Part shown: positions 40,626 to 49,202 of the stretch, one piece after another
Position numbering within the stretch: position 1 is the first letter of the stretch
Layout of the letters: each line of letters starts with the position of its first letter
DNA from: Crocinitomicaceae bacterium
GTDB lineage: Bacteria; Bacteroidota; Bacteroidia; Flavobacteriales_D; Crocinitomicaceae
Length of the DNA stretch: 64,000 nt
Assembly (NCBI GenBank): GCA_002709305.1
Contig: PAQM01000006.1
Coordinates: forward strand, 310,001 to 374,000
Direction: 5' to 3'
Notes under the pieces: generated by a model
The model's input: only the letters and a program-made list of their open reading frames with translations
Databases searched by the model: none
What the model was told of the DNA's origin: nothing
Program-made: the position numbers and the translations under genes

Positions 40626-41363
40626 ATGCCAACATTACCAATAGTAAATAACCTTGACAAAAGAAAAGGCATTATTACTGCTTTTGTAACAATGTTATTG
40701 TTATTATTATACTTAAGGTTTGCAACGTTAGAAATGGCTGACCCACCACCACAAGATATTCTAGTTGAAGCAACAACTGAATTCCCAAAAGAAATAGTTC
40801 TTAAAGATTTAAAAATTGAAGGCGGTTCAGGTTCAGGTAAATCATCAAACAATCCAATAGAAAAATTTAATGAACAAACAGAACAAATTATTACAAAAAA
40901 AGAGAATAAAAATACAAAAGTAAACTCTGGAAAGGCTAACAAAACAAACACCACGGAATCAAAAAACTCAAGTACAACAACTAATCAATCTACTGACCCA
41001 TTTGCATCAGGAGGAAATAGTAATGGTAATAACGGTGGTTCTGGTAATACATTTGGATCTGATTCAGGAACCGGTACTTCTACAAATAAAGGTGTTGGAA
41101 GTGGAGATGGTAGAATTAGACTTAATGATCCAATAATGGATAATTTATCTTCTAATGTAAATGCTACTATTCACTTGATATTAACAATAGATTCAGAAGG
41201 CAATATTATTTCAGCTTCAAGTTTAAAGGCAAAGACGACAACTACAAATCAAATATTGATTAATAAAGTTATTAATGAAGTGAAAAAACAGGTTAAATAT
41301 AATAAACAACCTGGAGCTCCACTTGCTAAACAATACATGTCTGTCAAAATCAAAGCTCAATAA
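40626..41363 (+). CDS. tonB: energy transducer TonB-like protein
   Basis: The 245-residue protein has an N-terminal membrane helix (IITAFVTMLLLLLYLRFA), a PPPQ segment, a long low-complexity Lys/Asn/Gly/Ser linker (about 75-165) and a C-terminal TonB-like domain (about 175-245, with NVNATIHLILTIDSEGNI and VINEVKKQVKYN). Such proteins span the periplasm and pull on TonB-dependent receptors. Linker composition is Gly/Ser/Asn-rich instead of the Pro/Lys/Glu linker of Escherichia coli TonB, which is usual for this group. The C-terminal domain is divergent, so symbol use is by context with exbBD. Confidence 0.85.
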   Translation: MPTLPIVNNLDKRKGIITAFVTMLLLLLYLRFATLEMADPPPQDILVEATTEFPKEIVLKDLKIEGGSGSGKSSNNPIEKFNEQTEQIITKKENKNTKVNSGKANKTNTTESKNSSTTTNQSTDPFASGGNSNGNNGGSGNTFGSDSGTGTSTNKGVGSGDGRIRLNDPIMDNLSSNVNATIHLILTIDSEGNIISASSLKAKTTTTNQILINKVINEVKKQVKYNKQPGAPLAKQYMSVKIKAQ

Positions 41364-46851: not shown

Positions 46852-47880
46852 ATGTCACTTAACCATATATCTGTAGTAATTTTAAATTGGAATGGTAAAG
46901 AATTATTAGAAACTTTTCTTCCATCAGTCATCGCTAACTCGGGAGATGCAAAAATCATTGTAGCAGATAATGGATCTACTGATGATTCCATAAAATTTGT
47001 AAAAGAAAATCATCCAACAGTTGAAATAATAATAAATAAAACTAATTCTGGTTTTGCTAAAGGGTATAATGATGTGCTCCAAAAAATAAATAATGAAATA
47101 TATGTTCTATTAAATAATGATATTGAAGTAACACATAACTGGCTTATTCCTTTATCAAAAATTATGGAAGATAAAAAGGTAGCAGCTTGCCAACCAAAAA
47201 TTTTATCTTACAAAAACAAAAAATTATTTGAACATGCTGGTGCTTCAGGGGGATTTATTGATAAAAATTACTATCCATTTTGTAGAGGAAGAATTTTTAA
47301 TAAAGTTGAAGAAGATACTAAACAGTATGATAAAAAAATAGAAATATTTTGGGCTACAGGTGCATGTTTAATGATACGTTCAAATTATTTTCATGAAATA
47401 GAAGGTTTTGATGAAGATTTTTTTGCACATATGGAAGAAATTGATTTATGTTGGAGATTAAAAAAATTAAATCTAAAAATCATTGCGTGTCCTGATTCTA
47501 AAGTGTTTCACCTTGGAGGAGGAACATTACAATATAATTCACCTAAAAAAGTTTATCTAAACTTCCGAAATAGCTTAATGATGATAACGAAGAATCATGA
47601 AGGATATATACTACCCAAAATTATTCTACGTTTAACTTTAGATGGTCTTGCAGCATTTACATTCCTGTTGAAAAATGGTGAGATTTTTAATTTTACAGCC
47701 ATTTTTAGAGCACATTTATCTTATTATCTTAAACTAAGATTATTATTAAGAAAACGTCGACAAATCAAATCAAAAAAATCAACCTTCAATTCAAAAGGAA
47801 TTTATAAAGGAAGCATAATAACATCTTATTTCTTAAAAAAGAAAAATAAATTCTCAAATCTGGATCAAAAATTATTTTAA
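46852..47880 (+). CDS. family 2 glycosyltransferase
   Basis: The 342-residue protein is a GT-A, GT2-type glycosyltransferase similar to rhamnosyl-transferase WbbL-like enzymes. It shows ISVVILNWNGKELLETFLPS, VADNGSTDDS (nucleotide site), NSGFAKGYND, VLLNNDIEV (DxD-equivalent), FWATGACLMIRSNYF and FDEDFFAHMEEIDLCWRL (catalytic acid region), then FHLGGGT. The C-terminal part (about 255-300) is hydrophobic and may associate with the inner membrane. Donor and acceptor are unknown; LPS or cell-surface polysaccharide is likely. The last 9 bases overlap aroQ, which is convergent. Confidence 0.9.
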   Translation: MSLNHISVVILNWNGKELLETFLPSVIANSGDAKIIVADNGSTDDSIKFVKENHPTVEIIINKTNSGFAKGYNDVLQKINNEIYVLLNNDIEVTHNWLIPLSKIMEDKKVAACQPKILSYKNKKLFEHAGASGGFIDKNYYPFCRGRIFNKVEEDTKQYDKKIEIFWATGACLMIRSNYFHEIEGFDEDFFAHMEEIDLCWRLKKLNLKIIACPDSKVFHLGGGTLQYNSPKKVYLNFRNSLMMITKNHEGYILPKIILRLTLDGLAAFTFLLKNGEIFNFTAIFRAHLSYYLKLRLLLRKRRQIKSKKSTFNSKGIYKGSIITSYFLKKKNKFSNLDQKLF

Positions 47881-48288
47881 ATTACCAATAAAATAGTCAA
47901 TAGCTAATTCATAAGCATTTAATCCAAAACCAAAAATACAACCAACCACAACTGGTGAAATTAAAGATGTATGCCTAAAAGATTCTCTTTTAGTTATATT
48001 GCTAATGTGCACTTCAATAACGGGTGTTTCAATTGCACTAATACAATCTCTTATAGCGATACTTGTATGAGTATAAGCTCCTGCATTAAGAATAATTCCA
48101 TTATGATTTGAACTTTGTATTTTATCAATTATTTCACCTTCAATATTAGATTGAAAATAATCTAATGAAATAGTTTTTTTTATTTTTAACTCATCAAAAT
48201 ATTTATCAAAAGAAAGATTTCCGTATATTTCTTTTTCACGTTGACCAATTAAATTTAAATTTGGTCCATTAATAATTAATACTTTCAT
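47872..48288 (-). CDS. aroQ: type II 3-dehydroquinate dehydratase
   Basis: AroQ dehydrates 3-dehydroquinate in the shikimate pathway. The 138-residue protein shows INGPNLNLIGQRE with the catalytic loop beginning, the catalytic tyrosine region after IYG, NAGAYTHTSIAIRD and VEVHISN with the general-acid histidine, and the terminal ISPVVVGCIFGFG. It is slightly shorter than the usual 145-150 aa at the C-terminus. The ATG ends at 48288, only 2 bp from the suggested xerD start on the opposite strand, so the two genes share a very short divergent start region. Confidence 0.95.
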   Translation of the reverse strand: MKVLIINGPNLNLIGQREKEIYGNLSFDKYFDELKIKKTISLDYFQSNIEGEIIDKIQSSNHNGIILNAGAYTHTSIAIRDCISAIETPVIEVHISNITKRESFRHTSLISPVVVGCIFGFGLNAYELAIDYFIGNLK

Positions 48289-48290
48289 TT

Positions 48291-49202
48291 ATTTCGTATT
48301 GGGATCACTATATTAAGAATTTTGTTTCATTCTTGAAAATCGAAAGAGGATTAGCTGATAATTCTGTTAATGCATATAAAGATGATATACTTAAACTAAA
48401 AGTATTTTCAGAAGAACAAAACATAGAACCAAAAAAAATCACTTCAGAATTTTTACAAAATTTTATAAGTAATCTTTATGATATAGGTTTAAGCGCTCGA
48501 AGTCAATCAAGAATTATTTCTGGTATAAAACAGTTTTTTAACTTTCTAATTTTAGAAGATGAATTAGAAAAAGATCCAAGTAAATTACTTGAACTTCCCA
48601 AAATTGGACGAAAACTTCCCGAAGTATTAACTATCGAAGAAATCGATTTAATTATTTCAAAAATAGATCTTAGTTCAAATGAAGGACATAGAAATAAGGC
48701 AATATTAGAAACACTCTATAGTTGTGGACTTCGAGTTTCTGAATTAATTAATCTTAGATTTGAAGAACTTTTTTTCAATGAAGGTTTCATTCGAATAATA
48801 GGAAAAGGAAATAAACAGAGACTTGTTCCAGTAAGTAAATCAGTAGAAAAAGAAATAAATATTTATGTAAATAATTTTAGACGTCATAAAAAAATAAAAC
48901 CTTCACAAGAAAGTTACGTTTTTTTAAATCGAAGAGGATCCCAGTTAACAAGAGTAATGATATTCACGATAGTTAAAAAACTAGCAGATAAAGCCGGAAT
49001 TATTAAAAATATTTCTCCTCATACATTCAGACATTCATATGCTACACACTTGCTAGAAGGTGGGGCGAATTTACGTGCTATTCAAGAAATGTTGGGACAT
49101 GAATCAATAACTACGACAGAAATTTACACACATTTAGACAAACAATTTATTAGAGAAGCAATAATCTCATATCATCCTAGAAATAAAAAAAAAGAAATCT
49201 AA
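48291..49202 (+). CDS. xerD: site-specific tyrosine recombinase XerD
   Basis: XerD resolves chromosome dimers at dif. The catalytic residues are visible: Arg in CGLRVSEL, the beta-hairpin Lys region IGKGNKQRLVP, HTFRHSYATHLLEGG, and GHESITTTEIYTH with the nucleophilic Tyr. The first ordinary start codon is TTG 48333 (289 aa), but the frame is open upstream and encodes YWDHYIKNFVSF before LKIERGLADNSVNAY, which is the conserved XerD N-terminus. I therefore extend the gene to ATT 48291, giving 303 aa, close to the usual ~300. No ATG, GTG or TTG precedes this in frame. The ATT start is inference; see findings. XerC is not in the window. Confidence 0.88.
   Translation: MSYWDHYIKNFVSFLKIERGLADNSVNAYKDDILKLKVFSEEQNIEPKKITSEFLQNFISNLYDIGLSARSQSRIISGIKQFFNFLILEDELEKDPSKLLELPKIGRKLPEVLTIEEIDLIISKIDLSSNEGHRNKAILETLYSCGLRVSELINLRFEELFFNEGFIRIIGKGNKQRLVPVSKSVEKEINIYVNNFRRHKKIKPSQESYVFLNRRGSQLTRVMIFTIVKKLADKAGIIKNISPHTFRHSYATHLLEGGANLRAIQEMLGHESITTTEIYTHLDKQFIREAIISYHPRNKKKEI

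Follow-up and report, generated by a model that had tools for sequence, protein, structure and literature searches.

The chromosome-maintenance gene xerD in the window, a stretch of 64,000 nucleotides on contig C6 of a 2.3-Mb Crocinitomicaceae genome (29 contigs, 99.73% complete), probably starts at a non-canonical AUU codon, the ATT at 48291-48293 of the plus strand, as judged by comparison with related genes. Read from this codon, xerD spans 48291-49202 and encodes 303 residues up to a TAA stop at 49200-49202, which agrees with the normal protein length that an earlier note on this DNA had expected of an ATT start. Upstream, the frame is bounded by two consecutive stops, TAA at 48270-48272 and TAA at 48273-48275, and then runs through 19 open codons (TTA, ATA, CTT, TCA and TTT, followed from 48291 by ATT, TCG, TAT, TGG, GAT, CAC, TAT, ATT, AAG, AAT, TTT, GTT, TCA and TTC) up to its first canonical codon, the TTG at 48333-48335. 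Direct reading thus confirms that no ATG, GTG or TTG lies in frame between the stop at 48273 and this TTG. A frameshift or a canonical start in another frame was rejected, as the out-of-frame TTG 48299 reaches a stop after four codons. The divergent minus-strand gene aroQ (47872-48288), which encodes the type II 3-dehydroquinate dehydratase AroQ, has its ATG at 48288-48286, and the two bases 48289-48290 are all that separates it from ATT, again as previously stated. As to identity, the xerD product scores 338 bits against the XerD equivalog family TIGR02225 of NCBIfam (cut-off 329.6) and 289.3 bits against the XerC family, below the cut-off of 335.15. It also matches E. coli XerD (1A0P) with an E-value of 1.4e-50, and the N-terminal part of this match is ungapped from query residue 8.

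The start column across related xerD loci

We assembled 130 related xerD loci, one search for relatives keeping the best 80 of 555 matched places, and retained 110 distinct loci after the removal of identical xerD sequences. Six of the 60 genomes searched gave an XerC-level match only (G002, G008 and G010, of the genus; G041, G048 and G052), and four order-level genomes with an XerD-level match (G039, G043, G051 and G057) were left out of the locus set. In the alignment of the 110 loci, ATT 48291 falls in the start-codon column of the family, three codons ahead of an almost invariant tryptophan, which upholds its earlier assignment as the homologous start position. ATG, GTG or TTG is present within -3 to +2 codons of this column in 108 of the 110 loci. 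Relatives with an ATG at or after the position of TTG 48333, which the earlier note had named as evidence that would tell against ATT, were not what we found, as the relatives start 14 codons before it.

The two exceptions are the source genome (G000), whose xerD has ATT and no canonical codon at the homologous start, and G014, one of its two nearest relatives, which has CTG. The other nearest relative, G023, carries TTG followed by CTG, with the CTG in the start column, and G015 carries ATG followed by GTG, with the GTG in the column, so that in both genomes a canonical codon stands one position ahead of the column. The remaining 107 of the 110 loci, set apart from the source genome, G014 and G023, have canonical starts, and ATT itself is found in one assembly only. 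A tree of codons 16-298 unites the source genome, G014, G023 and G015 in a clade with an SH-aLRT value of 100, leaving the order within it open. A second candidate for a non-canonical xerD start, the ATA before AAT TGG in the family member G036, was set aside on account of an in-frame TTG two codons ahead of the column.

A base error or local misassembly at 48291 could in principle hide a canonical codon, given a 29-contig assembly of unknown depth in which a single base change would suffice. We consider this very improbable because G014, a separate public MAG assembly (contig CAJJBE010000003.1), likewise lacks a canonical start codon and has different bases in its place; in addition, the xerD frame is otherwise intact over its 303 codons. 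On these sequences the ATT looks like an inherited weak start rather than a sequencing error, in which case AUU would have taken the place of an ordinary start at the same alignment position.

The proximity of aroQ is itself widespread, with a gap of 1-7 bp between the two genes in 81 of the 110 distinct loci. The xerD start codons of these 81 loci comprise 52 ATG, 16 GTG, 11 TTG, 1 ATT and 1 CTG, and the remaining 29 loci have 24 ATG, 4 GTG and 1 TTG. Because 29 of the 81 close-gap loci are thus scored as non-ATG (G015 being counted there as GTG though an ATG directly precedes it), against a background of 208 ATG, 16 TTG and 4 GTG among 228 orthologue-supported starts of the source genome, xerD tends by these counts toward non-ATG starts, with the window's clade as the extreme.

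The N-terminal peptide and a conserved DNA element

The codons downstream of ATT had been read in the earlier note as the conserved N-terminus of XerD, YWDHYIKNFVSF. This reading holds in so far as the peptide contributes helix A and an almost invariant tryptophan, and is weakened as evidence of translation in that part of the stretch is conserved as DNA. Trp4 is kept in 106 and Phe11 in 103 of the 109 other loci, and the frame is open through codons 4-15 in all 110. Among the 20 loci without a close aroQ, 19 of which also lack the DNA element described below, Trp4 is kept in 19 and Phe11 in 16. An AlphaFold2 model built from a 20-sequence alignment (mean pLDDT 82.4, pTM 0.61) predicts a helix over residues 3-18, with block pLDDT values of 87 and 84, and this model together with the 1A0P match indicates that the core-binding domain has its helix A at the N-terminus when the gene is read from ATT.

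These observations bear on whether translation starts instead at TTG 48333, yielding a 289-residue protein without most of helix A. This codon is the first canonical one in frame and is common to G014, and since the DNA upstream of it is conserved for a non-coding reason, part of the peptide's conservation can be accounted for even if the stretch is not translated. We nevertheless judge such a start unlikely, because the TTG corresponds to the family's ordinary Leu15: column 15 is leucine in 102 of the 109 other loci, TTG is its commonest leucine codon (41 of 85), and in 108 of the 109 others a canonical codon stands some 14 codons upstream. Moreover, a protein begun at TTG 48333 would lack Trp4, 12 of the 16 residues of helix 3-18 and thereby most of helix A, and among 298 orthologue-supported starts the upstream context of this TTG ranks at the 6th percentile.

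The DNA-level signal resides in a 24-bp element at 48306-48329, spanning xerD codons 6-13, whose family form is CGCTATATTAAGGATTTTGTTTCA and which occurs here with CAC and AAT variants. Of 257 codon columns scored for synonymous conservation, Arg6, Val12 and Ile8 rank highest, and the top six-codon conservation windows begin at codons 4-8. The Arg6 codon is CGC in 78 of 81 cases, a codon that makes up 2.4% of arginine codons in the source genome's own compared genes and 9% in G014. Where aroQ lies within 24 bp, 86 of 89 loci carry the first 12 bp of the element with up to three mismatches, as does 1 of the 20 other loci (L067, incomplete upstream, is omitted from this table). This link comprises only two to three independent contrasts on well-supported branches, for which a sign test is not significant. 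Brumimicrobium loci whose intergenic gap is long lack the element as well. Conservation of the element is apparently connected with the divergent aroQ, and a role as a putative aroQ promoter or operator is possible, although the element does not contain the TAnnTTTG consensus. A box of this type that would serve aroQ from within xerD is found in 1 of 86 loci and is not supported.

With up to two mismatches, 31 of 34 genomes contain one copy each of the element, namely the one in xerD. We discarded the idea of a regulon motif, as hits at three mismatches are as frequent in kind as those of a reversed-pattern control. A conserved RNA hairpin over codons 8-15 is likewise not claimed: 80% of its cells are paired and it ranks 5 of 7704 same-size helices tried in the gene, so that four helices score higher, and it shows no compensatory pattern. 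Separately, the intergenic region of the Brumimicrobium locus L093 carries TACAATATTAAG, some 20 bp away from the start of aroQ, with 3 mismatches of 12 against part of the element, which could be the element relocated outside coding sequence or a chance match.

This second layer of conservation affects how the 5' codons can be read. Compared with G023, codons 2-14 show 4 non-synonymous and 1 synonymous differences among 13 codons, and the rest of the gene (codons 15-298) shows 51 and 117, respectively, among 284. The non-synonymous count of codons 2-14 is not above the gene rate in comparisons with G023 (P 0.19), G014 (P 0.58) or G015 (P 0.17), and the synonymous count against G023 is below it (P 0.01) because of the element conserved at the DNA level. 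By itself, then, the non-synonymous count of codons 2-14 does not show coding constraint, and because codons 6-13 are conserved as DNA, the peptide HYIKNFVS cannot be taken as clean proof that the stretch is translated. The points still in favour of coding are the retention of Trp4 and Phe11 in loci without a close aroQ, the open frame, the family profiles and the match to the start column.

A candidate promoter inside aroQ and the initiation context

Within aroQ codons 9-11, the plus-strand sequence TAAATTTG at 48256-48263 is a candidate -7 promoter box for xerD and fits TAnnTTTG, the Bacteroidota -7 consensus as given in the cited passages of PMC6847099 and PMC9723704. Among 77 loci with a gap of at most 7 bp and at least 60 aroQ codons, 54 have a TAnnTTTG that begins 27-42 bp ahead of the edge of the aroQ start codon, compared with 17.7 expected from synonymous resampling of aroQ codons. 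Measured from xerD codon 1, the box is at -34 to -36 in 54 of 86 loci. Given this box and the spacing of 4-5 nt between -7 box and start site that the cited part of PMC6847099 reports, the predicted transcription start lies near 48268, which would leave a leader of about 23 nt. For comparison, the cited excerpt of PMC9723704 gives a median leader of 24 and 5.5% leaderless transcripts for F. psychrophilum, and published flavobacterial transcripts, in the excerpts available, are mostly leadered. The almost leaderless initiation deduced earlier from the closeness of the aroQ start is therefore not supported, as the conserved candidate box inside aroQ predicts a leader of this length of about 23 nt.

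The predicted start site also bears on ATA 48279-48281, a near-cognate codon four codons upstream of ATT, at which initiation as AUA would be another way of starting the protein. It is in frame in the source genome, G014 and G023, and its upstream-context score equals that of ATT. Yet this ATA does not fall in the start column of the family, its conservation is explained by the coding of aroQ, to which it is antisense, it would be left with a leader of only about 11 nt from the predicted start site, and in nine of the loci compared an in-frame stop directly precedes the start codon, so the frame upstream is not used there. We accordingly give a start at AUA little credence.

The surroundings of ATT are not favourable to initiation. 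T stands at both -3 and -6, positions at which F. johnsoniae favours A according to the cited portion of PMC6847099. Among the 298 orthologue-supported starts, the upstream context of ATT ranks at the 27th percentile, and about 91% of these starts have a less folded start region. An A at -3 is in fact excluded, because at a gap of 2 bp the CAT of aroQ fills -5 to -3. In the mechanism that we propose, a transcript would begin near 48268 from the promoter inside aroQ with about 23 nt of leader, AUU would be a weak start for initiator fMet-tRNA, the 2-bp head-to-head geometry would add to this weakness by barring the favourable A at -3, and low-level production of XerD would follow. Low output is the natural inference because the context is poor and folded and AUU is itself weak. 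XerD is taken to be needed in small amounts. As a measure of such weakness, AUU and AUA sites of S. aureus drive reporters at about 10% of AUG in poor medium, as the cited part of PMC13009471 has it, and CUG initiation amounts to 0.86% of AUG in the cited part of PMC11497404.

The same weak start, poor context and folded start region could alternatively mean that the gene is in decay and that this lineage has ceased to make XerD. We find this exceedingly improbable in view of the 303 intact codons, the codon differences from G023 in codons 15-298 (117 synonymous, 51 non-synonymous), and a family score above the TIGR02225 cut-off. In addition, R148, K172, H244, R247, H270 and Y279, which we take to be the usual tyrosine-recombinase catalytic residues, are invariant in the 20-sequence alignment.

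If AUU is the start, regulation of xerD initiation by IF3 is possible. A more far-reaching reading, which we regard as doubtful, is that this small marine clade actively keeps the xerD start off AUG, GUG and UUG, and that XerD output depends on the fidelity of initiation (IF3) and on a head-to-head control module common to aroQ and xerD, with a control element of either gene embedded in the 5' coding sequence of the other. In this proposed module, aroQ codons 9-11 would contain the -7 box of xerD, and xerD codons 6-13 the aroQ-linked 24-bp element. Were this reading true, the dosage of chromosome-dimer resolution would be tied to the translation state and to the opposite shikimate-pathway gene. 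Among the matches listed, literature titles included no xerD with a non-canonical start and no aroQ-xerD module.

Known non-canonical starts and a genome-wide control

The xerD ATT, as read here, joins the already known non-canonical starts of infC, pcnB, sigR and ccpN. It resembles infC of Escherichia coli in being a conserved bacterial gene that starts at AUU, as described in the cited passage of PMC5472188. E. coli infC differs, however, in having a feedback reason for IF3 control, namely IF3 autoregulation. We know of no comparable feedback reason for XerD. A further difference is that infC of the source genus starts at ATG in six of the seven genus genomes with a match (nine searched), the source genome (L189) being one of the six and G001 the one that could not be resolved. 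In order-level relatives, infC lacks a canonical codon in L183 and L188, is ambiguous in L190 and could not be resolved in L184. Judging from these genomes, start-codon control of infC may have been lost in the source genus.

The likeness to E. coli pcnB is that AUU limits translation of an enzyme (as cited in the available part of PMC13009471), though pcnB is another gene, from another phylum, in an organism that uses Shine-Dalgarno sites. Streptomyces sigR keeps a non-canonical codon with some variation (GTC in 32 of 34 and GTT in 2, according to the cited part of PMC5472188), much as ATT and CTG vary here, but for sigR the IF3 dependence is shown by experiment, whereas the xerD case is known from sequence, with two genomes that lack a canonical codon. 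Staphylococcus aureus cvfC1 (AUU) and ccpN (AUA) are likewise conserved, with reporter activity of about 10% in poor medium (from the cited portion of PMC13009471); in contrast, they rest on extended Shine-Dalgarno motifs, and Bacteroidota ribosomes do not recognise Shine-Dalgarno motifs, as stated in the cited passage of PMC9976891. If confirmed, the xerD start would therefore be a non-canonical one in a phylum without Shine-Dalgarno sites on its mRNAs. Changes of this kind are rare, with 1 AUG-to-AUU and 2 AUG-to-CUG among 61,358 reconstructed AUG starts in the cited part of PMC5622118, and here two sister genomes show the rare AUU and CUG codons in the same gene. In practical terms, a gene caller limited to ATG, GTG and TTG would trim 14 residues from XerD.

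As a control for odd starts elsewhere in the genome, we compared 414 kb of the source contig (about 18% of the genome) with parts of G014, which gave 334 non-overlapping reciprocal best pairs. Ranked by identical residues ahead of the first canonical codon, xerD comes first in both genomes with 14. Four of these lie in codons antisense to aroQ, and the 10 that are counted from ATT place xerD behind two pairs with 13 and 11, both leading to an ATG common to the two genomes; because these ATG-led pairs outrank it, identity to one relative does not decide the matter. At least four upstream identities are found in 31 pairs in the source genome and 28 in G014. We scanned 29 of the 31 pairs against NCBIfam (two cross a locus edge), and with five lacking a family match, 24 were judgeable. 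Of these 24 testable genes, only xerD has a best family match whose start precedes the first canonical codon by more than one residue: its matches begin 5 residues (TIGR02225, the best) and 9 residues (PRK00283, the second-best) before TTG 48333. For a GMP-synthase-like amidotransferase the match precedes that codon by a single residue, and phosphoglycerate dehydrogenase has an upstream match start only via a second-best family that is below cut-off. A genome-wide relaxation of start choice was thus rejected as an explanation, there being no sign of it among the 24 judgeable genes beyond xerD. A folC-like gene at 41323, entertained as another odd start, proved ordinary: its TTG, common to G014, lies inside the 3' end of a TonB-like gene, which it overlaps by about 40 bp (41323-41363).
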